From positions 56,758 through 120,757 of the forward strand of contig CACIJG010000003.1 in NCBI GenBank assembly GCA_902586885.1: 64,000 nucleotides of DNA. Reading direction: 5' to 3'. Below the pieces are notes generated by a model that saw only the letters and a program-made list of their open reading frames with translations, was not told where the DNA came from and did not search any database. This DNA comes from an uncultured Alphaproteobacteria bacterium (GTDB lineage: Bacteria; Pseudomonadota; Alphaproteobacteria; Rhodobacterales; Rhodobacteraceae). This document shows positions 1,895-18,145 of this stretch, piece by piece. The position numbers were made by a program, and so were the translations under genes. Positions within the stretch are counted from its first letter, which is position 1, and each line of letters starts with the position of its first letter.

Positions 1895-3052
1895 TTATGG
1901 GCTCTTGCTATATTTTTTTATTAATGTTGCTAAAGCTGTCATTCCCTCTGGAGGAATCTGCTGCACAATTTTTATAAGGTTTGGATTTCCTGAATAAAGA
2001 ATGTCGCTTTTCATCGATTGGAAAAGTTTCGAGCCCTCGATGGCATCCTTATCGGAGATATCAATTCCCCTACATATTACGCCGTGCCTCCAAGCATTTT
2101 TATAATCGACTTGAAATGAGGTGGTTTGTAAAGTTCCACAATTAGCACAAATAATAGATTTCTGAGGCATAAGGCTGGAGCACTTTGAGCAACTTTTGTA
2201 ATTAACTTTTGCTGAAGAAGGAAATACAGTTCCGCAAAATGAACAGTTTTTGTCAGACATTGCGCATTGCTGATGACAAGAAGGACATTTTTTTGTTGAT
2301 GGAGCTCTAGTAATTTTGGGTGGCACATGGGCCATTTCTTCCTCAATTCGCCGAGCATACTTCTGAAATATCTCTAGCATCGGCATTAAAAAATATGCCC
2401 TTGTAATGTCATCCTTATCGATCATTCTGACTACACGGCCCAAAGCCTGTCTGAAGTACAATTCAGTTTTTGAGTGCGGCATATAAATGCAACAAGCTAA
2501 AAGGGGAATATCAACTCCCTCGGAAACCATGTTGGGACTGATAATCCATTTTTTATTTGAATTTCTGAACCTGCCTATCAATTTGTCTGCGTTTGGAAGA
2601 CTACTGTTGCAATTAATAGGCTTTTCACCTGTCAGCAAATGTACCAATTCAGTTGCATAATTAGCAAAAAAAATAGATGGGACGACCCAAAGACCTTTTG
2701 CATTTGGTATGTCGTAACGTATTTTTGTGAGCTCAGCATCAGCCTGTTGAAACATAGCTGCATGATATGAATACAAATCAGGTTTTCCAAACTTGTCAAA
2801 GTTTGGTGTATATGCCAAATTCTCGTAATCTATCGATTTTTTAATCGATTTATTTATGAGCCCTTTTAGGGCCTTGGGTATTTTGGGGTTTTTTCCTCCC
2901 TCAACTATGACCCTACTTTTGCCAATATCAACTTCAAATTTTGAGGTAAAAACATCAAAAGTTGTGGCTCTACAGGACTCTCCAATAGCGTCTCCATATG
3001 TATGTTGAAAAACGCCAGCGCTAGGATGGTTAATAGCATTTGTTGCAATCAT
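1895..3052 (-). CDS. SF2 helicase C-terminal half with zinc-ribbon repeats
   Basis: Helicase motifs 'WIISPNMVSEGVDIPLLACCIYMPHSKTELYFRQALGRVVR' (V/VI); CPSC..CSFC, CSKC..CANC pairs; start overlaps the stop of the upstream HNH/helicase ORF (TAATG). Confidence 0.75.
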   Translation of the reverse strand: MIATNAINHPSAGVFQHTYGDAIGESCRATTFDVFTSKFEVDIGKSRVIVEGGKNPKIPKALKGLINKSIKKSIDYENLAYTPNFDKFGKPDLYSYHAAMFQQADAELTKIRYDIPNAKGLWVVPSIFFANYATELVHLLTGEKPINCNSSLPNADKLIGRFRNSNKKWIISPNMVSEGVDIPLLACCIYMPHSKTELYFRQALGRVVRMIDKDDITRAYFLMPMLEIFQKYARRIEEEMAHVPPKITRAPSTKKCPSCHQQCAMSDKNCSFCGTVFPSSAKVNYKSCSKCSSLMPQKSIICANCGTLQTTSFQVDYKNAWRHGVICRGIDISDKDAIEGSKLFQSMKSDILYSGNPNLIKIVQQIPPEGMTALATLIKKYSKSP

Positions 3053-3831
3053 TATAATGTAGCTCCCTTCTCATTAAAATGTAACCAGACAGTCTCATTT
3101 CCATCAGATCGAACTGGTGTTCCTGTCAAAATTAGAATTCGCTTTGTATCTCTAAAGGCATTATCTGCACTTTTCCCCCAAGCAGCCTCCTTAGCTGCAT
3201 GATGATGCTCATCACAAACAAGAAGTACATTATGTTTTTGGCAGACTTTCTGAAAAGCCTCCTTAAGATTTTGTATTGAGCTCCAGGTACAACAGAGATC
3301 AATTCCAAAATCCTCAATATCACAGTCTGATCCAGTTACTTTTGTCATTGGCCGACCAGTAATTCTAGTAAACTGCGCAGCGCTTTGATTAGCTATTTCG
3401 TTGCGTGGCATAACCTTGATAACCCTATCGATCTCTCCCCTATCAATAAGTGCTTGCGCCATAAAACTAGCTAGTGCTGTTTTGCCCGACCCAGGCGCTG
3501 TGTTAACCACGAATATTTTATTCTCAGGCTTGTTATCAGCAGAATACCAGTCAAGGCCTTGTCTTAGGCATTTCTCCTGCCACTCTCTCATTTTAATTTT
3601 TGGTGCTTTTGTTTGCTTCATATATGTAGATGCTCCCTTTTTAATGTTGCAAGACTCACATAAGGCTTGTCCGTTCATAAGTGTTGTTTTTCCCCCTTTA
3701 GAGAAAGGATGAATATGATCAGCGTGAAATGATCCCAACAAAGGCTTCGAGCAGATCTCGCATTGATTTCCTGCTAAAATCCTAAGGATCTTCCTGGATC
3801 GCTGTGAAAATCTCCTAGTCATTTTCATCAA
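3052..3831 (-). CDS. HNH endonuclease domain fused to SF2 helicase N-terminal half
   Basis: HNH: 'CEICSKPLLGSFHADHIHPFSKGGKTTLMNGQALCESCNIKKG'; Walker A 'NTAPGSGKTALA'; motif II 'VCDEHHHA'; motif III 'LTGTPVRSDG'. Confidence 0.8.
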   Translation of the reverse strand: MMKMTRRFSQRSRKILRILAGNQCEICSKPLLGSFHADHIHPFSKGGKTTLMNGQALCESCNIKKGASTYMKQTKAPKIKMREWQEKCLRQGLDWYSADNKPENKIFVVNTAPGSGKTALASFMAQALIDRGEIDRVIKVMPRNEIANQSAAQFTRITGRPMTKVTGSDCDIEDFGIDLCCTWSSIQNLKEAFQKVCQKHNVLLVCDEHHHAAKEAAWGKSADNAFRDTKRILILTGTPVRSDGNETVWLHFNEKGATL

Positions 3832-4842: not shown

Positions 4843-4880
4843 TCATTCCTCCAAAAGGGTAAATCGTTGCTTACAGGGGT

Positions 4881-4908
4881 TATATAATATACCGATGTAG
4901 CATGTCAA
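4881..4908 (-). promoter_or_regulatory. Putative sigma70-type promoter for the minus-strand block
   Basis: Minus strand reads TTGACA-16 nt-TATATA (TTGACATGCTACATCGGTATATTATATA), about 40 nt before the ORF start at 4842. Confidence 0.5.
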
Positions 4909-5070
4909 CACCTATGGGTAAACTTTTTTTCAATTCATGAATTATTCGCTCACTTTTTTTAATTTAAAAATTTTTTATTCAATTTTTTCAATAGTTTATA
5001 ATAAATTGACTTTTTTTAATATTTGAGCTATTTTTTTCACACAAGAGTAATTTTGCAAGGATTTTTTACT

Positions 5071-6531
5071 ATGGATGAAAAAAAAATACTAGTTAGCTGG
5101 ATTGGAGAAAAAGACATAGATGTCATGAGGGTGATAAATAATGGTCAGGAAGAGGAGAGATCGAGCTCCCTCGCCGCTCTAGCAGAAAATCAATCTTATA
5201 AGTTCAAGAAAATTATACTTGTTCAAAACTATCGAGAGGGGGAAAAAAACAAAGAAGATACGATTAAGGAAGTGGAAGAGTACGTCACGTTCCTTAAAGA
5301 GAGGTCGACTAGCAAGAACTTGGAAATAATATCCGAGACAGTCTTATTAGAAAATCCTGTCGACATGGAAAAACTCCAGGTTATTGGCTCAAAAATTTTA
5401 ATAGATCACTGTGAAACTGATGCCACTATATATTATAACATGAGCTCAGGTACATGGGCCATGCGTTGGATGTGGTTTTTTATGTCTGAAACAGGACGTT
5501 TCCATGGAACTTTGCTTCAGGGCTCACCAGAGGCTGGGATTAAGAAGGTTACTGTTCCTTATGAACTAAGTGGAATGTATTTATTTCAAAATCAGGCAAC
5601 TAGGGAAAAAGAAAAGTTAATACATAGTTTATTTGAACCTAGACTAGAACAATCATTAGTATCTCAGAAGTTAAAAAGGTTAATTTTTAAAGCCTCGAGG
5701 GCTGCATCAACTGATTACCCTGTTTTTATACTTGCTGAAAGAGGTTGCTATTCAGACAAATTGGCAAGAGGCATTCATCAGAGTTCTACAAGAGGCAAAG
5801 AAGATAAAGTAATGCATTCTGCTGACTGTTTTTATCATTCTGCGGAAAACAATACAATTTCAGAAATTCTTTCAAGGTCTGAAGGCAGCACCATTCTTTT
5901 GGAAAATATCGACCATTTAAGTAGAATTAATCAGGAAAAATTAATCGAGAGGTTTGAGTCTCAGAACTCATTAGAGTTTCCTCGATTGATTGTGTCATCT
6001 ACCAAAACATTTGAGGATATAAAAAATCAAAGTTCTTTAAGTCCAAAGTTTGTCGATCTGGTCACACGTGTGGTTTTAAAAATACCACCTTTGAGAGATA
6101 GAGAAGAAGATCTGAAAAAGATAATTAACTATCGTTTTGATCGCCTTTGTAAGGACCAAAAAAGCTCTCTTACTCTTTCTAACGAGGCAAAAGAACAATT
6201 GATAAAACATCAATGGCCTGGAAATGACGTTGAACTAGAGAAAGCTCTTACACAACTTATACTCTTCACTGAAGGGGATACGGTAAATTATTATGACGTT
6301 GCAGAAACCCTTTTTGAATTACCAGAGATTAATACGACCACTAGTGATATGCAGGTTGAGATAAGTGAAAATTTTCGGTTAAAAGAGCATCTGGATAAAA
6401 TAGCCAAAAGATATATAATCACAGCTATGTCTGAAACTAACAGAAATAAAAGTGAAGCAGCAAAAAGACTAGGTGTATCCAGCCAGCAAACGTTAGGAAA
6501 ATGGATAAAACGACTTGGCATAGGAGGTTAG
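5071..6531 (+). CDS. RtcR-like regulator: N-terminal CARF-type domain + degenerate sigma54-activator AAA+ domain + C-terminal Fis-type HTH
   Basis: 'ATIYYNMSSGTWAMRWMWFFMSETGRFHGTLLQGSPEAGIKKVTVPYEL' is RtcR/CARF-like; AAA-like 'PVFILAERGCYSDKLARGIH', 'GSTILLENIDHLSRINQEKLIERFE', 'IPPLRDREEDL'; HTH 'NRNKSEAAKRLGVSSQQTLGKWIKRLGI'. Start moved from 5023 to ATG 5071, after AAGGA. Confidence 0.75.
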   Translation: MDEKKILVSWIGEKDIDVMRVINNGQEEERSSSLAALAENQSYKFKKIILVQNYREGEKNKEDTIKEVEEYVTFLKERSTSKNLEIISETVLLENPVDMEKLQVIGSKILIDHCETDATIYYNMSSGTWAMRWMWFFMSETGRFHGTLLQGSPEAGIKKVTVPYELSGMYLFQNQATREKEKLIHSLFEPRLEQSLVSQKLKRLIFKASRAASTDYPVFILAERGCYSDKLARGIHQSSTRGKEDKVMHSADCFYHSAENNTISEILSRSEGSTILLENIDHLSRINQEKLIERFESQNSLEFPRLIVSSTKTFEDIKNQSSLSPKFVDLVTRVVLKIPPLRDREEDLKKIINYRFDRLCKDQKSSLTLSNEAKEQLIKHQWPGNDVELEKALTQLILFTEGDTVNYYDVAETLFELPEINTTTSDMQVEISENFRLKEHLDKIAKRYIITAMSETNRNKSEAAKRLGVSSQQTLGKWIKRLGIGG

Positions 6532-6535
6532 CGAA

Positions 6536-9310
6536 ATGTTTCACGAATTTGGCATTGAAAATTTTAAGTCATGGAAAGATAAACACTACATTTCGATTAA
6601 TGATATTTCTCTTCTATTTGGAAAAAATAGCTCTGGTAAAAGCTCTATCCTTCAGGCCTTAATGTTACTTAAAGCTAGCAGCAAAATCTTTGATCCTTTT
6701 AATGACAGTTTGAAAAAAATGAGGAGAGCAACTCCAAAGGCACCGATAAATAAATTAACTTTTGCGAACACAATAAGAGATTTCGGGAGTATTGACGATA
6801 TTATCCACAAGAATTCTCAGAAAATTGATGGAATTCAGACATTTTCTTTCCGCATAAAACCGAAAGAATTTACTCGTGCTTCCGTTGATCACCTAATTAA
6901 AAGTGGTGCAATTAATATCGATAGCTCTTATGCCAACACAAAATATGACTTGAGAACCAAATATGAATTATTTGTAAAAAAAGCAAATCTACTCATTCCC
7001 AAAGATTGTAAATTCATTGAGATTTGCCTCATATTTAATAAAGCCGTTCTCCAAAATATTGATATCTGTTTTGATAAGGAGAGTATCGCAAGACTTAAAG
7101 TATCAAATGGCTATTTTGAAAATGTAGAGCTAACCACCAATCCGAAAATTTGGAAAGATTTTTTGGGCGTGACAGGAAGCGATAATGAAGTCCATTCTAA
7201 TTCCATAAAAAATATAGAAGAACTTAATGAAAAATCGAGTGAATCTTTGAGCTCGCATAAGGACAGAATATTCGATCTTATTCATAAATTTGGAGATAAA
7301 CCGTTATTTTTAAAGAGACCATTTAGTGATATAATAGCGTTAGACTCTGGAGCACCAAATTTTTTTGAAAGTGCAAAAAATGAATTCCAAAAGATAGAAT
7401 ATGCTATTAACGACAAATCCACTCTTGCGATCCATATTGATGATTTCGTAAAGAATTTGCTAACTGATTTGGGCGGAGTAAGTGAGAGAGATATTGTAAC
7501 CTTAACCTCCATAAAAAAATTGAATGAAAAATTCCATTCATTGTTCAACGGATCTACTGGAGACTTAGCCAATGATGAGGATTTGGAATACGATCTTCTT
7601 TACCCAAGCGTGCATCTAAAGCAAGCAGTTGGCAGGCTAATCAAACTACTCTCAAGTTCAGACTGGAAGAGAGCAAGGTTTATCCATGCCAGAAAAATGG
7701 CATCGCAGAGCGGTGCAAAAAATAGAAAAGAATATTTAGCATGGATCAGAAAAGCACAAAAAGATTATTCATATAATTCTTTGGACGTATTTTCTGCTTC
7801 TCTCAATCCAAAAGAAGAATTCGGCGATTTATTTAAAACCTGGACCCTTTTTTTAGGTCCCTGGGGAGGTGAGTTTCCAGACAAATATGTACACCATGAA
7901 CCGTTTTCAAAAGGAAACCCTCGAGAAGGAAAGTTCCTTTTAGATGTCCTATCTGACGAGAGATTAGAAGAACTAAATTCTTACTATTATGAGGAAGCAA
8001 GGCAGATTATTCAAGCCGCAGTGAGGCTTTGTCACCATGTTGGGACCTATATTTCAAGCTTGGAGAAATTAGAAGAAATTTCTTTTGAAAATAAAATTTT
8101 TCTAGAAACTCACAAAACGATATCTATTGAAAAATTTCTGGAAACATTGAAGCAAGTAAGCTTTAGAAACTGCAATTTTCTTTCTCCAGTACAAAACAAA
8201 CCCCTTGTAAGGTCTATTACAACTACCCAATTCCTAGACTATAACAAGCGTATAGGTCTATACGATCTTTCAGACGATAGCGTGATGCATCTTTACACTG
8301 ATCTCTATGCAACATCCACAAATAGAAACGATCAGAATTCAAGAGATATAAATGTTTTTTATCTCCTGACATATGCTATTACTTATTTATCAGAAGGTCT
8401 GGAGTCTTTAGAAATTCTTGGGCCTCACAGACCTCCACCACAGCGTTATATAAGAGGAGACTCTACAGTCGGAAATAACGCCTATCTATCGATTCTCAAC
8501 AACGAGAACAAAGCTAGACCAGAACAAATTAATCTTATGAATGATGCCTTACATTTGTTAGAAATACCCTACAGCTTAAGTAAAAAGAACGATGGGGAAG
8601 ATAATATCTATGAGGAGATAAAACTCCTAGACAAAAATAATATGGAAGTATCTATATTAGATGTTGGATACGGTATTTCTCAAATTCTCCCTGTAATAAT
8701 CACAGCTTTCACTCAGAGAAATAAGACCATCTTGATAGAGCAACCCGAGCTCCATTTACATCCCAAACTTCAAGCTAATTTAGCTGATATTTTTGCTATA
8801 TCTACCCTCTCAAATAAAAATAAGTTTCTTTTGGAAACACATTCCGAGCATCTTTTACTTAGATTTATGAGACGCAGAAGAGAAAACTTCGAGGATGACT
8901 TAATCAAGAAAGGCATAGACCCTAGCATGCTTTTCCTGCCTTCTGAAGAGGAAATGGAAGAAAAACTGACGCCTGAAGTCGAAAGCAAGAAACCCAATAA
9001 AAAGAAACTAAAGCTAAAACAAATGGAAAAAGGTCATATGTTTTTCAGAGATGATAAAGAAACTGGGGTAGATTCAGATGGTCAAATTTGGGAAGACTTT
9101 CAAGGACCCACATTCTTCCAAGATCCTGACTTTTATAATAACCTTTATACTTTGGTGAACGAAAATAAAATTAGTGTCACTGCAATATCAATAAATTCCC
9201 ACCTAGCCACTTCATCCGTTTCACTAATACAATTGACCAACGAGGGTAACTACATAGGAGAGTGGCCTGATGGTTTTTTTCCAGAAAGACATGAAGAGCT
9301 AGATATTTAA
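6536..9310 (+). CDS. SMC/ABC-like AAA ATPase (AAA_15/AAA_21 type) with DUF3696-like C-terminus, 924 aa
   Basis: Walker A 'LLFGKNSSGKSSILQALMLL'; signature-like 'ILDVGYGISQILPVI'; Walker B 'TILIEQPELHLHPKLQANLADIF'; 'LLETHSEHLLLRFMRR'; C-terminal 'GNYIGEWPDGFFPERHEEL' as in DUF3696. Confidence 0.85.
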   Translation: MFHEFGIENFKSWKDKHYISINDISLLFGKNSSGKSSILQALMLLKASSKIFDPFNDSLKKMRRATPKAPINKLTFANTIRDFGSIDDIIHKNSQKIDGIQTFSFRIKPKEFTRASVDHLIKSGAINIDSSYANTKYDLRTKYELFVKKANLLIPKDCKFIEICLIFNKAVLQNIDICFDKESIARLKVSNGYFENVELTTNPKIWKDFLGVTGSDNEVHSNSIKNIEELNEKSSESLSSHKDRIFDLIHKFGDKPLFLKRPFSDIIALDSGAPNFFESAKNEFQKIEYAINDKSTLAIHIDDFVKNLLTDLGGVSERDIVTLTSIKKLNEKFHSLFNGSTGDLANDEDLEYDLLYPSVHLKQAVGRLIKLLSSSDWKRARFIHARKMASQSGAKNRKEYLAWIRKAQKDYSYNSLDVFSASLNPKEEFGDLFKTWTLFLGPWGGEFPDKYVHHEPFSKGNPREGKFLLDVLSDERLEELNSYYYEEARQIIQAAVRLCHHVGTYISSLEKLEEISFENKIFLETHKTISIEKFLETLKQVSFRNCNFLSPVQNKPLVRSITTTQFLDYNKRIGLYDLSDDSVMHLYTDLYATSTNRNDQNSRDINVFYLLTYAITYLSEGLESLEILGPHRPPPQRYIRGDSTVGNNAYLSILNNENKARPEQINLMNDALHLLEIPYSLSKKNDGEDNIYEEIKLLDKNNMEVSILDVGYGISQILPVIITAFTQRNKTILIEQPELHLHPKLQANLADIFAISTLSNKNKFLLETHSEHLLLRFMRRRRENFEDDLIKKGIDPSMLFLPSEEEMEEKLTPEVESKKPNKKKLKLKQMEKGHMFFRDDKETGVDSDGQIWEDFQGPTFFQDPDFYNNLYTLVNENKISVTAISINSHLATSSVSLIQLTNEGNYIGEWPDGFFPERHEELDI

Positions 9311-9311
9311 G

Positions 9312-10388
9312 ATGAGGAATCTTTTTGAGTATATTTTTGTTGATCCACTAGCTATTTGGGATTATCCAGATTTATTAAAGCAAACTTCAATTCGTTATGG
9401 ATTTATTCTTGTAAATGAGCGCACACAAACAATTGACGAACAAATTGAAGAACTCGTTCCAATAAATGATGAAAATAGGTGGAAGTTAGATCGTATTCGA
9501 TATCTCTTAACAGGGTTAAGAGCTAATGACGCCGTGGTGAACCCAAATTTTTATTCTATTAAGACCATGAACGAAATATCAAACAAAGACATTAGACCTA
9601 AATTTCTTCAAGATACAGACGCATGGGCTCAGGAGGTAAAGGTACCATATTTATGTATTGTTTCAGAAGAAAATACTGGCCAGAAAGTTGCAGATCCACG
9701 TCTGGGTTTTCATTTAGACCCTTTGCAATTTCAAAAAATAGATTGTCAGGGAAAAGATATGAAGCTTGAACACGACAGTCGTGCCACGGCCAAAATATTG
9801 TCAAGAATTTTACAGCCTCAAATTTTTAATCGTTGTGTACATCAGATTGATATTGTTGATTACCAGGTTCAAACTATTGGAATTCCGCCTTTTAAAAGGC
9901 TTTACAACTATTTATCAACCATTGAGGAAATGTCTTACAGTCTGTACGAAAAATATTTTAATAATAGGCCACAGCCTTCCACTCCAATGAAGATAAACAT
10001 ATTTTTTAGGAACGATAAAGATTTGGATCTTATTGAATTCGCAAAAAATTGGGATGATCATATAAAAAAAATACCTCGTTTTTCGAAATTGAATGGGAAA
10101 TTAGAAATTCAGTTTTTTTGCTTAAGTTACAAAGACGATGGTAGAAAAATCAATGTCATACACGACCGCTGGTGTTTTTCTAAATCTTTTTTGCTTGGAA
10201 CTCAGATTGGCATTTGTTCAAAACCAGGCGGAGTAGTTCATCAAAAAGGACGGATAAAATGGAAATTGATACCAACAGAAGAAAACAAAAGATTACCCGA
10301 CCAAGAAGACTATTTAGAACTAATACAAAAATGGTTTTGTAAAAACTCAACTGAATACAATACAAAACATTTAACTAGAATATATTAG
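9312..10388 (+). CDS. Uncharacterised protein, 358 aa, with C-terminal HDR motif (possible PLD-like fold)
   Basis: 1-nt gap after the ATPase; 'INVIHDRWCFSKSFLLGTQIGICSKPGG' resembles H-D-R signatures of some PLD-like domains. Confidence 0.7.
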   Translation: MRNLFEYIFVDPLAIWDYPDLLKQTSIRYGFILVNERTQTIDEQIEELVPINDENRWKLDRIRYLLTGLRANDAVVNPNFYSIKTMNEISNKDIRPKFLQDTDAWAQEVKVPYLCIVSEENTGQKVADPRLGFHLDPLQFQKIDCQGKDMKLEHDSRATAKILSRILQPQIFNRCVHQIDIVDYQVQTIGIPPFKRLYNYLSTIEEMSYSLYEKYFNNRPQPSTPMKINIFFRNDKDLDLIEFAKNWDDHIKKIPRFSKLNGKLEIQFFCLSYKDDGRKINVIHDRWCFSKSFLLGTQIGICSKPGGVVHQKGRIKWKLIPTEENKRLPDQEDYLELIQKWFCKNSTEYNTKHLTRIY

Positions 10389-10428
10389 CAAAGTAATTTT
10401 AATATTTAGTTAGAGTGATAAAGAAGAT

Positions 10429-11184
10429 ATGTGCATTGATTATAACAAAGTAGATCTGAAGAAAATCGAAAAGGAATTACAACGGTGGGTAAGTAGCTTG
10501 TACAGCAAAAACAGTTTTGGAAAAAATGAACCATTATCAAAGCATCTGAAGAAATTTCCAAAATCTATAACTGGAATAAATCTTCAAAGCATTAAAACTA
10601 GACACGGACAATTCATTGAAAAAAGTTTTGCTGAGTGGGTAAGATGTATCCCTGGATGGGGTTCATTTCTTAGACCAGTTGTTAATTTCCAAAACGGAAA
10701 CGTAAAAGAGATAGATAACATTTCATTTAATACTAAGACTGGAAAACTTCTGATATTTGAATTAAAGCGAAATTATGATACCTACTATTTTCATACCCAA
10801 GGCTATGGACAAAATTTCTATGATCGGCTCTATGACTATAAATTAAATGAGCCCTCAATCATTAGGTATGTTGAAAGAAACACTTCTCAAACGGTAACAA
10901 GTTGTGAAATCTTGTTAGTTAATGTTTATGGCGAAAGAGATAATTGGAATTCCAAGCAGGTAATACCAAAACCTGACTTTCATCCAAGGATAGTTCTGGG
11001 GTCTGAGTTAGGAGAAATATTCGGAGAATGCCTTAATAGATTTTTAGCTGAACTTGATGAAGCTATGATGACAATTACATTGGAAAAATACTGCAAGAGT
11101 ATGCAAATCGAATATAAGACTGAGGGCAGCGATAATAAACTTAAAGAATCACTATTAGCTATGAATACAAATCGTGATAGATAG
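10429..11184 (+). CDS. PD-(D/E)XK-like nuclease, 251 aa
   Basis: 'RHGQFIEKSFAEWVR' then 'KEIDNISFNTKTGKLLIFELKRNYD' (E...D-x14-E-x-K arrangement of restriction-endonuclease-like folds). Confidence 0.7.
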   Translation: MCIDYNKVDLKKIEKELQRWVSSLYSKNSFGKNEPLSKHLKKFPKSITGINLQSIKTRHGQFIEKSFAEWVRCIPGWGSFLRPVVNFQNGNVKEIDNISFNTKTGKLLIFELKRNYDTYYFHTQGYGQNFYDRLYDYKLNEPSIIRYVERNTSQTVTSCEILLVNVYGERDNWNSKQVIPKPDFHPRIVLGSELGEIFGECLNRFLAELDEAMMTITLEKYCKSMQIEYKTEGSDNKLKESLLAMNTNRDR

Positions 11185-11195
11185 GAAAATAAATT

Positions 11196-11543
11196 ATGAC
11201 ACAAAGAAAATCTGTTATTCCAACCCTTGAGGAACTTAGAGAAGAATTAGAAAAATTAGAAGCGAAGTATTGTGACTTGACTTGGTATGGGAGAGGACGT
11301 GAGAGAAAAGGAGAAGCTCTTAAAAAGGTTGCAGAAATTGAGGCAAATTACCCTACTGAGGTAGAACAAATTAACTCAGAAGAGCATGATTACGCGTGGG
11401 GCTTTAATCGTGGTTGTATGGCAGCATTTAGATTTGTATTAACGGCATTAGATGAACGAGGCGAAATCGATGATAACGGAAAGATCGATTATTGGGGTGG
11501 CCTTAATGAGGCACGAAAAATATTCCCTGAGTTAGACACTTAG
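11196..11543 (+). CDS. Small acidic hypothetical protein, 115 aa, last gene of the plus-strand operon
   Basis: 11-nt gap after the nuclease; good RBS (aggaaaataaattATG). Confidence 0.6.
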   Translation: MTQRKSVIPTLEELREELEKLEAKYCDLTWYGRGRERKGEALKKVAEIEANYPTEVEQINSEEHDYAWGFNRGCMAAFRFVLTALDERGEIDDNGKIDYWGGLNEARKIFPELDT

Positions 11544-11752
11544 ACATTAAATCTTATAAATGTGTAGATTGCCTTGTGGAATAAAGCAAACTGTGATAAC
11601 TTTTTATCATTAAAAACAGTGACTTAGGGTGTAGACAGGAGGACACCTCCTCCGCCATCAAGTTCCACAAAATCATTTTTAAACATTTAAAAAAGCTAAT
11701 ATTGCTTTAATGTTTGTTCTGTAGATAAAGTTTGATATTAAAAAGGTTAAAA

Positions 11753-13855: not shown

Positions 13856-15457
13856 TCATGTGTTTGGTTTCTGAATCCAAATATAGCTATCTGCTTCTTT
13901 TGTGGAGATAACATTGAGAGGCTCACAATCTTTTTTTGCCTCATCAGGTTGCAGCCCAACCCATTTTCTTACTTCACCAGATCTAAAGCAGAATTCACTG
14001 TTATGGTAAGGACATAAGATTGTCCCTTCTTCAGTAATTTGTCCAATCTCCAATGGCAAGTTCATATGAGGACATATATTCTCAATTGCAAATAATCCCT
14101 CCTGATTAATTAACAGAATTTCTTTACCATCATATTCAAATTTTTTCTTTTCTCCCTTATCTAACTCGCTTATTGGTAATGTTCTTATCCAAAGATCTCC
14201 ATCGATCTCTTTTTCCTGAACAACGGAATGATCAATCAAACTATTGGAATCTATAGAGCTAACTTCATGTAATGTAATAAGATTGCTAGATCCTCTCAAT
14301 TTTAGCCTAACGAAATTTCTTACTTCAACGTTATCCTTAATCCTTTCATAGGCGACATCTGAGATAAGGAGTCGAGTTCCAGCATCTTTATTTATTGCCT
14401 CTATTCGACTTGCAATGTTAACTGTGTCCCCGATAACCGTAAACTTTTTATCTTCACCAGACCCCACTGAGCCTAGTATTACTTCTCCAAAATGCACTCC
14501 TATTCTCATATCAAAATCTCTGCCGTAGGCTTTCAAGAGATACTCCTTAAATTCATCCATTGCTTCTAACATTTCTACAGCTGCATTTGCTGCTCGCAAG
14601 GTTTGCTGCCTTGAGTCTTTAAGGCCAAAAATTGCTAAAATAGCATCACCAATATAATTATTTACTTCTCCACCATTTCTAATGATGACATCTCGCATTA
14701 TTGAAAAATATCGGTTTAGTATAAAAATTACATCATATGCGGCAAGTGCCTCAGAAAAAGGGGTAAAGCCCCTAATATCGCTGAACATGATAGAGAGATT
14801 CCTAATAGTTCCTACTGACTCAAGTTTTGTATTAGCTAACTGATTAGAGTTACCCAAATCTCTCTTATCTAAAAGTAGTCTTCTGTAAGAAACAGGTCCA
14901 TTGATTGTAGTCTGACAGGCCAGTCTAATGTTTTCAGGAAAAGATAATTTTTTTGCTAGTTTCTGCTCAAGCTCAGTTCTTGATGAACAATTTTCCAACC
15001 CGTCAGTTATCTCCACTCTACATGTAGAGCATTTTCCAGTGCCCCCACAAGCACTCAGGTGTGCTACATTGTTTCTTAGAGATGCCGTTAGGATTGTCTC
15101 GTTTACAGCGATATCAATTTTCTTGCTATCTGGTTCAACTCTGGCAGAAAAACTGTTTACTTCTTTTTCTTTAAACTCAAGACTGTTATGACTACCATCA
15201 CAAAAAGGTTGGTTTTTGGTTCGCTTGCAAGTACAGAAAAATTTAGTTTCATTTTTGTCTGCGGTATATTTTAGGGGCTGGAACTCCGAACCAACATGAC
15301 TTCCATCACAAAAAGGTTGGTTTTTGCTTTTTCCACAGCTACACCAAAAGTAATTTTCGCCCTCCTCAACATCATGAGCAATCGGTTTATATTTTTCCAT
15401 ATCAAATTTACCTAAAATACCTAGCCTATGTTTTGAAAAATAATCAAATTGACTCAA
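13856..15457 (-). CDS. Multi-Fe-S adenylate cyclase: CDGSH x2 + 2Fe-2S ferredoxin + class III cyclase + Rieske domain
   Basis: 'CSCGKSKNQPFCDGSH' and 'CTCKRTKNQPFCDGSH'; 'LSACGGTGKCSTCRVEI...LACQ'; cyclase 'SIMFSDIRGFTPFSEAL...NNYIGDAILAIFG...VIGDTVNIASRIEA'; Rieske 'CPHMNLPLEIGQI...CPYHNSEF'. Confidence 0.9.
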   Translation of the reverse strand: MSQFDYFSKHRLGILGKFDMEKYKPIAHDVEEGENYFWCSCGKSKNQPFCDGSHVGSEFQPLKYTADKNETKFFCTCKRTKNQPFCDGSHNSLEFKEKEVNSFSARVEPDSKKIDIAVNETILTASLRNNVAHLSACGGTGKCSTCRVEITDGLENCSSRTELEQKLAKKLSFPENIRLACQTTINGPVSYRRLLLDKRDLGNSNQLANTKLESVGTIRNLSIMFSDIRGFTPFSEALAAYDVIFILNRYFSIMRDVIIRNGGEVNNYIGDAILAIFGLKDSRQQTLRAANAAVEMLEAMDEFKEYLLKAYGRDFDMRIGVHFGEVILGSVGSGEDKKFTVIGDTVNIASRIEAINKDAGTRLLISDVAYERIKDNVEVRNFVRLKLRGSSNLITLHEVSSIDSNSLIDHSVVQEKEIDGDLWIRTLPISELDKGEKKKFEYDGKEILLINQEGLFAIENICPHMNLPLEIGQITEEGTILCPYHNSEFCFRSGEVRKWVGLQPDEAKKDCEPLNVISTKEADSYIWIQKPNT

Positions 15458-16450: not shown

Positions 16451-18145
16451 TTAGTTAATCTGAATTTCTGATGCTCGCTCCATAAACAACGCATCCATTT
16501 CATCTTCTTTTCCTCTTATTTTTGTTTTCAAAATAGAAAAGTTTTTTTGATTTATTCTTGCAAGATCAGCTAATTTTTTGGATATCATTATTTCACAAGA
16601 GTGCTCTTTCGTTAATTGCTCTAACCTGCTTGCGATGTTTACACTATCTCCTATTGCAGTTTCTGAACTGGACTGACCAAATCCCATTTTCCCCAGGATA
16701 ACGGTTCCAGCGTGAACTCCTATCCCAATTTTAAGATCCTCATCAAGTTCGCTTTTAAGCTCTTCATTTAACAACTTGAGGCTCTTTGAAATGTTCCTTG
16801 AGGCTACCAGCGCATTCTTGCAGTTTTCATTCATATTGTTACTGATGTCAAAAATTGCCATAACACCATCTCCAATAAACTTGTCTACCCTGCCACCATT
16901 ATCTTCTATACTCTCGACCACAAACTTAAAATATTTGTTTAAAATGTAAACTACATCATAAGGTAATTTTGTTTCAGACATTCTTGTAAAGCCTCTAATA
17001 TCTGTAAACAAAATAACGGCTTCTACTTCGACGCCACTTAAACTTCTTTGAGTACCCAATTGTATTTGAGACTTTGTTTCTTTATTTAAGCTTAAAAGAG
17101 GCATTATCTTGATGTCACTTTCAGGACGAAGTTGGCATGCCAACCTAACATTTTTGTCAAAACCTAATCTCTTAATAACCTTGCTTTCTATCTGGTTGGG
17201 TTGAGGTAATTTATTTAAATCTGAAAGCACTCTAACTCTACAGGTAGTACACCGTCCTCTTCCCCCACAAACGTGCTCATGAGTAATCCCAGCCTGTTGG
17301 CTGGTTTCTAGTATCGATGTACCTTTCGATACAAATGATCTCATGCCATCCAGATAATCTACTCTAATAGTTTTTTGAGATCGCAACCAGAAATACCTAA
17401 GCAAATAGAAACAAAGGATAGCACCAACTATAGCCGGGTAGAGTAGAAATTGAAGTTTATCACTTATTTCCAAAATAAGTTTACCTGTTGCTTCCTTGTA
17501 ATTGGATTTAGCCAAGGTCTCTAAAACAAATGAAGGGTCCCTATCTGACTTGTCTAATGCTTTCATTCCAGCCGACACATATCCAATTATGGCTAGAGAC
17601 GGTATAATCCAGTAAATCGAAAAAAAGACCCTCTTATATCTAATATAAAAACTCCTGAACTCTAATAAACCGTGGATACCAATAACTCCATGGATCCACA
17701 CCAAAATTAGCATAAGGATAAGAAATATTACTCCTGTAAAATCGAAAACCCATGTGCTGACCACCATAAATGAATAGCTATCAATAAGGCCCTCCCATCG
17801 GGAACCATATAAAGTAATGCTTAGATGCCCAGCTAGAAAAAATGGTATTAAAACAGCAGAAATATTTCGTATCCACTCCTTAGCTGTCAACTTTATGTTC
17901 TTTCTGCGCGCTAAAGCATATATGCCTAATAAGAGATGTATAGCGAGAGCTGAGTATAAAATTATTGAGACGAAATAATTTCGCCAGAAAGTTAGAAAAA
18001 AAGATCGTCCATACTCCATAGCATCTATCGAAATTATTCCTAGAGAGTGATTAGACAGATGCGTAACCACATAGAAAAACAGAAAACTACCGGACACTAT
18101 GCGTAGGTATCTAATAATTAAATTTAAATCCATACTCTCAATCAA
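16451..18145 (-). CDS. Membrane-anchored ferredoxin-adenylate cyclase (multi-TM + 2Fe-2S + class III cyclase)
   Basis: Several hydrophobic N-terminal segments; 'EHVCGGRGRCTTCRVRV...LACQLRP'; 'VILFTDIRGFTRMSETKLPYD...VDKFIGDGVMAIFD...AIGDSVNIASRLEQ'. Confidence 0.9.
   Translation of the reverse strand: MIESMDLNLIIRYLRIVSGSFLFFYVVTHLSNHSLGIISIDAMEYGRSFFLTFWRNYFVSIILYSALAIHLLLGIYALARRKNIKLTAKEWIRNISAVLIPFFLAGHLSITLYGSRWEGLIDSYSFMVVSTWVFDFTGVIFLILMLILVWIHGVIGIHGLLEFRSFYIRYKRVFFSIYWIIPSLAIIGYVSAGMKALDKSDRDPSFVLETLAKSNYKEATGKLILEISDKLQFLLYPAIVGAILCFYLLRYFWLRSQKTIRVDYLDGMRSFVSKGTSILETSQQAGITHEHVCGGRGRCTTCRVRVLSDLNKLPQPNQIESKVIKRLGFDKNVRLACQLRPESDIKIMPLLSLNKETKSQIQLGTQRSLSGVEVEAVILFTDIRGFTRMSETKLPYDVVYILNKYFKFVVESIEDNGGRVDKFIGDGVMAIFDISNNMNENCKNALVASRNISKSLKLLNEELKSELDEDLKIGIGVHAGTVILGKMGFGQSSSETAIGDSVNIASRLEQLTKEHSCEIMISKKLADLARINQKNFSILKTKIRGKEDEMDALFMERASEIQIN

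Follow-up and report, generated by a model that had tools for sequence, protein, structure and literature searches.

A CARF regulator with a degenerate sigma-54-type AAA+ domain heads a putative ATPase-nuclease defence cassette at the end of a probable tRNA-Ser island

Many bacteria lack sigma-54, the factor through which CARF regulators of the RtcR_PspF2 type are predicted to activate restriction operons. CARF-NtrC-HTH proteins are often linked to restriction-modification (R-M) systems and have been predicted to be sigma-54 dependent (Makarova et al. 2014; PMC4012209). In 2024, RtcR homologues were reported at the head of defence superoperons, with RNA ends carrying a 2′,3′-cyclic phosphate being proposed as the signal for RtcR-headed systems (PMC11090510). 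The NtrC proteins of R. capsulatus (Rhodobacterales) and Caulobacter are without the GAFTGA motif and act at sigma-70 promoters, and VspR acts at sigma-70 promoters without ATP (PMC10274813).

The window, which is the whole 64,000-nt stretch of Rhodobacteraceae DNA analysed here, contains five co-directional ORFs, all on the + strand and separated by gaps of 4, 1, 40 and 11 nt, that begin behind an AT-rich divergent intergenic region (Table 1). The original prediction, made from the letters of this DNA, had described these ORFs as a single operon encoding a CARF and Fis-HTH regulator, an SMC-like ATPase with a DUF3696-like tail, two proteins with nuclease-like motifs and a small acidic protein, and had proposed that they formed an undescribed system. 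The layout, the divergent region and the motifs were all recovered, including HDR in gene 3 and E...D...ExK in gene 4. The prediction had missed the loss of the AAA+ motifs in gene 1 and the att-like repeat at which the operon ends. Novelty stood only in part: no other instance of the exact five-gene set was found, but CARF-NtrC-HTH proteins at R-M and defence operons had already been published in 2014 and 2024. The CARF-led defence operon is known, while the combination of a sigma-54-decoupled regulator with an ATPase/PLD-like/PD-(D/E)XK cassette is new. As the exact gene set was seen only here, its status as a conserved unit, and so as a new system, is unsupported.

Table 1. Coordinates of the operon and of the features that border it in the window
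Feature	Coordinates	Strand	Basis
Divergent AT-rich intergenic region 5′ of gene 1	4843..5070	.	Sequence
Gene 1: CARF (aa 1-165) - degenerate sigma-54-type AAA+ (aa 195-418) - Fis-type HTH (aa 440-486) regulator, 486 aa	5071..6531	+	PADLOC, Pfam, motif alignment
Gene 2: SMC/ABC-type ATPase with DUF3696-like tail, 924 aa	6536..9310	+	Pfam, PADLOC, tblastn relatives annotated DUF3696
Gene 3: probable divergent PLD-like HxR nuclease, 358 aa	9312..10388	+	Position behind ATPase, family alignment, low-confidence model
Gene 4: PD-(D/E)XK-like nuclease, 251 aa	10429..11184	+	Homologue with shared motif residues
Gene 5: small acidic protein, 115 aa	11196..11543	+	ORF; without relatives found
Island right end, 16-nt repeat CACCTCCTCCGCCATC = tRNA-Ser(TGA) 3′ end	11644..11659	+	Repeat search

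Gene 1 shares with the RtcR_PspF2 regulators of R-M operons the domain order, the CARF and HTH motifs and the first-gene position, but differs in being without the Walker A, GAFTGA and Walker B motifs and in having no sigma-54 promoter before gene 2. The RtcR protein of the rtcBA RNA-repair operon has the CARF-AAA-HTH layout in common with gene 1 and possibly an RNA-end ligand, whereas it has kept the AAA+ motifs and is linked to rtcA and rtcB, neither of which is present in the window's operon. Deletion of the L1/GAFTGA loop and a predicted sigma-70 mode of action are common to gene 1 and the GAFTGA-less NtrC of Rhodobacterales and Caulobacter (PMC10274813); however, the sensor of the latter is a phospho-receiver and its ATP binding matters, while gene 1 has a CARF domain and no longer contains ATP-binding motifs. 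Septu, Gabija, PARIS and Menshen each combine an SMC/ABC-like ATPase with a nuclease-type gene, as does this operon, but no PtuB, GajB or AriB match and no whole-length match to any of these systems was detected here. In CoCoNuT superoperons (PMC11090510), a series of defence genes is likewise preceded at its 5′ end by a CARF regulator, an RtcR homologue, but these superoperons carry McrBC and coiled-coil HEPN genes, none of which is present in the window's operon. The original prediction had recognised no named system, and none was complete in PADLOC-DB 2.0.0: gene 2 matched only parts of several ATPase models (NsnB, AriA, GajA and PtuA), and genes 3 to 5 had no credible match in PADLOC, Pfam, NCBIfam or PHROGs. 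No Rfam match and no tRNA were detected in the window.

Gene 1 was assigned by PADLOC to RtcR_PspF2 (CARF_AAA_HTH, PDLC01995; E = 2.3e-65), and both the N-terminal CARF domain and the C-terminal Fis-type HTH of this family were present in PADLOC and in the regulator alignment; Pfam detected a sigma-54-type AAA lid and the Fis HTH. The match to NF038308 (RtcR) scored 70 bits, below the curated cut-off of 650. In the alignment, the HTH was intact, including the family-typical S-x-Q-T-L segment, while the Walker A position read AERGCYSD, the Walker B position read ILLENID and the GAFTGA loop was deleted. Judged by these motifs, the AAA+ domain is catalytically dead and is without the sigma-54-contacting loop. 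A first regular-expression count had produced about a dozen regulators without GAFTGA, and comparison of the aligned columns left only four: the loop or a close variant was kept in 80 of the 84 aligned regulators and was absent from gene 1, L068 (an alphaproteobacterial MAG), L070 (Defluviimonas) and L076 (Roseovarius). In L070 and L076, the loop is deleted and Walker A reads GEAGTEKE, with Walker B intact; in L068 and gene 1, Walker A and Walker B are also lost. By their motifs, the loop-less regulators form a graded series of loss. In a tree constructed from the CARF and HTH columns only, leaving out the AAA+ domain, one branch had the four loop-less regulators together on the same side (ultrafast bootstrap support of 73 and SH-aLRT of 90; recovered in 74% of bootstrap trees). 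Gene 1 itself had a long branch, of 2.6 changes per site. Two of the three loop-less relatives are 85% identical to each other in CARF. These four regulators are few and probably belong to one lineage.

Sigma-54 sites, defined as at least 10 of the 12 consensus bases, were sought from −30 to +120 around the regulator stop codon. Of the 85 conventional loci, 53 had such a site behind the regulator gene; none was detected in the 4 loop-less loci, the 89 internal control windows or the 88 upstream windows. No site was present upstream of gene 1 (best, 7/12) or at the junction of genes 1 and 2; as gene 2 starts only 4 nt after gene 1, there is no room for the sigma-54 promoter of the relatives. 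Sigma-70-like hexamers (TTGACT-17-TATTTT) at 5006-5034 are a candidate only, their number being at chance level (3 found, 2.8 expected), and an AAGGA Shine-Dalgarno sequence precedes gene 1 at 5057-5061. Palindromes in the 4843-5070 promoter region yielded no convincing candidate for an operator.

The presence of sigma-54 itself was assessed in the host genomes. RpoN (PF04552) was present in 51 of 52 tested hosts of conventional regulators and was not found in the three loop-less hosts outside the window (Defluviimonas, Roseovarius and the L068 MAG). It was also not found in the window's own MAG, which is 76% complete, and a missing contig may explain this absence; the proposal that the window's genome lacks sigma-54 is weakened by the presence of RpoN in 15 of 22 members of its genus. 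Among 108 near-complete genomes of the bacterial family, RpoN was found in only 37 and, therefore, its absence from two Rhodobacterales hosts is unsurprising by itself. We favour the reading that selection in a sigma-54-poor lineage produced a regulator able to do without this factor. The graded series of loss would then show a mobile defence module rewiring its control for sigma-54-less hosts, and the gene 1 type would be a small CARF switch, testable with ordinary promoters.

On this reading, gene 1 would have descended from CARF-type sigma-54 activators of restriction operons, with the AAA+ domain now serving as a dead scaffold. Its CARF domain may sense a product of infection, possibly RNA ends with a 2′,3′-cyclic phosphate by analogy to RtcR, and the most likely target of the Fis-type HTH is an operator 5′ of gene 1 itself. 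Gene 1 would act on sigma-70 RNA polymerase as a repressor or a non-hydrolytic activator, by which its own operon would be relieved or activated. An alternative is that gene 1 has ceased to regulate transcription and is a CARF-gated scaffold or relay through which the gene 2 ATPase is gated directly, comparable to the CARF effectors of type III CRISPR systems, and that the HTH is only a DNA tether. With both ATP-binding motifs lost, the chemistry of a classical activator is gone, and gene 1 is co-transcribed with the effectors and has no identified operator, all of which would suit such a role; however, an HTH intact down to the S-x-Q-T-L segment, and the position of the two loop-less relatives that keep Walker B (L070 and L076) at the head of an R-M operon, the place of a transcription regulator, make direct gating unlikely. 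Transcriptional control through sigma-70 RNA polymerase is retained as the preferred reading of gene 1.

Loci headed by related regulators were collected by using the CARF alignment to scan genomes from 84,980 species and taking the best 80 of 167 confirmed loci, to which the window, plasmid and viral loci were added. Classification by downstream genes gave 28 R-M loci, 20 R-M loci with an ATPase or PLD-like gene, 3 loci of kinase type and 35 others; ATPase/PLD loci without R-M numbered four, the window being one. A class-wide search with PDLC01995 was uninformative because the AAA+ part matches every sigma-54 activator. CARF-profile matches in 12 Rhodobacterales genomes were weak, had frames mostly of about 525 aa and are probably ordinary RtcR. 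On plasmids, relatives of gene 1 are found at the head of type I R-M operons in Pseudomonas luteola, Vitreoscilla, Vibrio and Azotobacter and of VWA-PP2C-kinase operons in Polaromonas and Rhodoferax. On an Aureispira plasmid (L065), a divergent CARF regulator of the sigma-54 type adjoins a type III-B cmr operon.

An ATPase gene and a PLD-like gene were co-directional and 3′ of the regulator in 16 of these best 80 genome loci, mostly with type I R-M (L070, L072, L076, L079, L086, L098, L100, L103, L106, L108, L109, L113, L114, L122, L140 and L143), and were also found behind the regulator on two plasmids (L059 and L064). Across the phylum, only 27 of 398 genomes had a similar ATPase at any position, and chance adjacency to CARF regulators is therefore negligible. 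This recurring order of regulator, ATPase and PLD-like gene, together with the common position of the regulator family at the head of type I R-M operons, bore out the placing of a single operon in a defence-like context. Co-occurrence at other loci extended to the regulator, the ATPase and the PLD-like partner but not to genes 4 and 5, neither of which recurred in other CARF-regulator loci. A second R-M-free form of the cassette was seen in L114 (14179-18843) and L098 (14614-19401), in which the CARF regulator, ATPase and PLD-like gene are followed by a protein of 1550-1600 aa, a helicase with an MTES_1575 nuclease in L114 and PDC-S37-like in L098. The Vibrio plasmid p337, which carries L064, contains a second ATPase pair (L032, 7014-9636) whose downstream partner was unrelated to the PLD-like family by phmmer.

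Gene 2 matched AAA_15/AAA_21 in Pfam (E of about 4e-17), with a Walker A motif, GKNSSGKSS, at 6620-6646 and a Walker B region at about 8727-8765. Its C-terminal tail, WPDGFFPERHEEL at 9257-9307, resembles relatives annotated as DUF3696 (tblastn); no DUF3696 match was listed for gene 2 in the Pfam search, and a search of the available literature on DUF3696 in defence gave nothing relevant. Gene 2 has each of the features used to recognise ATPases of this module, namely, Walker A, Walker B and a C-terminal WP[ND]GFFxERxEEL tail. The SMC-like ATPase would be the nucleic-acid-sensing, ATP-gated core and clamp of the cassette, and the PLD-like (H-x-R) gene 3 and PD-(D/E)XK-like gene 4 proteins would cut DNA.

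The partner family located directly behind these ATPases consists of proteins of about 300 aa with an E-Y-A-x-[DE]-P start, a [VI]D[PRS] strand and an LHNRYxLTDxGG segment, and has no model in Pfam or PADLOC-DB 2.0.0. In Foldseek, an AlphaFold model of the family (pLDDT 92) matched phospholipase D, SauUSI (a restriction enzyme of the PLD type) and the exonucleases PLD3 and PLD4. Many members contain HxR(x4)D, which, in the light of the model, we infer to be a K-to-R form of the HKD motif. The recurrence of this pair of ATPase and unmodelled PLD-like partner behind CARF regulators merits attention.

Gene 3 follows its ATPase gene directly and has a conserved D at 9858-9860 and an H-x-R at 10161-10169. 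It aligned end to end with the partner family and kept 8 of the 9 invariant columns (P, W, W, L, D, H, R, G), a count that leans towards agreement because the alignment includes gene 3 itself. The gene 3 motif, HDRWCFSK, has the form HxR(x4)K and resembles the HARYLFNK of the Azotobacter member. A profile score of 1.8 bits was marginal, ranking about 10th among about 437 unrelated ORFs of similar length, and hhalign against the family gave E values of 0.013 with 10 rows and 0.09, which is shuffle level, with 25 rows. A model generated with the family alignment had a pLDDT of 52, and its 18 best PDB matches were all PLD (E of about 0.01), a result that is not independent because family rows were included. 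Direct searches of 289 class genomes, 393 order genomes, plasmids, phages and viral contigs returned no homologue of gene 3 other than itself. The position, the motif order and the alignment-assisted, low-confidence model make it quite probable that gene 3 is a divergent member of the PLD-like partner family; a nuclease of the PLD superfamily is the most likely identity of the HDR protein.

Gene 4 fits, at the level of its residues, the PD-(D/E)XK motif series E...D...(D/E)xK, with E64, D96 (10714-10716), E111 (10759-10761) and K113 (10765-10767). Elsewhere in the bacterial family, one genome (L153) encodes a homologue (E = 7e-10) that shares E64, D96 and E111-x-K113 and immediately adjoins HmaC- and HmaB-type genes. 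No relatives were found in plasmids, and two distant ones were found in genomes of the same bacterial family. In L153 (1147-8133), the gene 4-like nuclease is directly behind Hma-type methylase and ATPase genes and is possibly an extra component of Hma systems. Gene 5 contains 25 D/E and 17 K/R residues, and no relatives were found in plasmids or phages.

The att-like repeat CACCTCCTCCGCCATC lies 100 bp after gene 5, and a second copy forms the 3′ end of tRNA-Ser(TGA) at C3:51988-52003 of the contig, 16,413 bp upstream and outside the window. A pattern search of the 1.8-Mb assembly, allowing one mismatch, detected CACCTCCTCCGCCATC nowhere but at these two sites. As the tRNA-Ser 3′ end is repeated just past gene 5, the operon is probably, on the evidence of the repeats, the last cargo of a 16.4-kb integrative island in tRNA-Ser. 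No integrase was recognised, and a DsbA-family gene is present beyond the right-end repeat. We consider it fairly probable that the operon is a self-contained, CARF-controlled defence cassette carried on this tRNA-Ser island. A wider reading is more tentative: a CARF lineage of Alphaproteobacteria may have escaped from sigma-54, losing first the loop and then the ATPase, such that ATP-independent switches control or gate mobile nuclease cassettes in sigma-54-less hosts, and the window would contain an unnamed ATPase, PLD-like and PD-(D/E)XK defence system.

SMC-like ATPases with nucleases are also found in repair, and the location on a tRNA-borne island means that the target may be other islands or plasmids; the cassette could act in DNA repair or recombination, or in contests among mobile elements, instead of in defence against phages. 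This is rather improbable given that the regulator family is repeatedly linked to R-M, kinase and type III-B CRISPR defence operons and that a relative of gene 4 adjoins Hma defence genes. Least probable is that gene 1 is a decaying pseudo-regulator of a constitutively expressed cassette, as its long branch and the loss of all catalytic motifs might suggest, since the 486-aa frame is fully open and tightly coupled, the CARF and HTH motifs are kept, and loop loss with intact frames in three relatives from other genomes, including the two with closely similar CARF domains, argues that the form persists. The favoured reading remains that of a CARF-controlled defence cassette.

The island also carries an HNH/ResIII helicase, a DUF2130 protein, a Cas4-like PD-(D/E)XK protein and an HD protein. 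The Cas4/PDDEXK_1-type nuclease is left of the window (L157, 5476-6315; C3:55476-56315), with no CRISPR genes seen adjoining. On the − strand of the window at 1895-3831, an ORF with HNH and ResIII helicase domains and an ORF with Helicase_C and zinc-ribbon domains overlap at 3052; together they resemble a single SF2 helicase that is read as two ORFs owing to a frame change or coupled translation. Two further − strand proteins (13856-15457 and 16451-18145) were seen by eye to fuse ferredoxin-like motifs to an adenylate/guanylate cyclase domain, the first also having CDGSH-like and Rieske-like motifs and the second an N-terminal membrane part, and this pairing of redox and cyclase modules is unusual.
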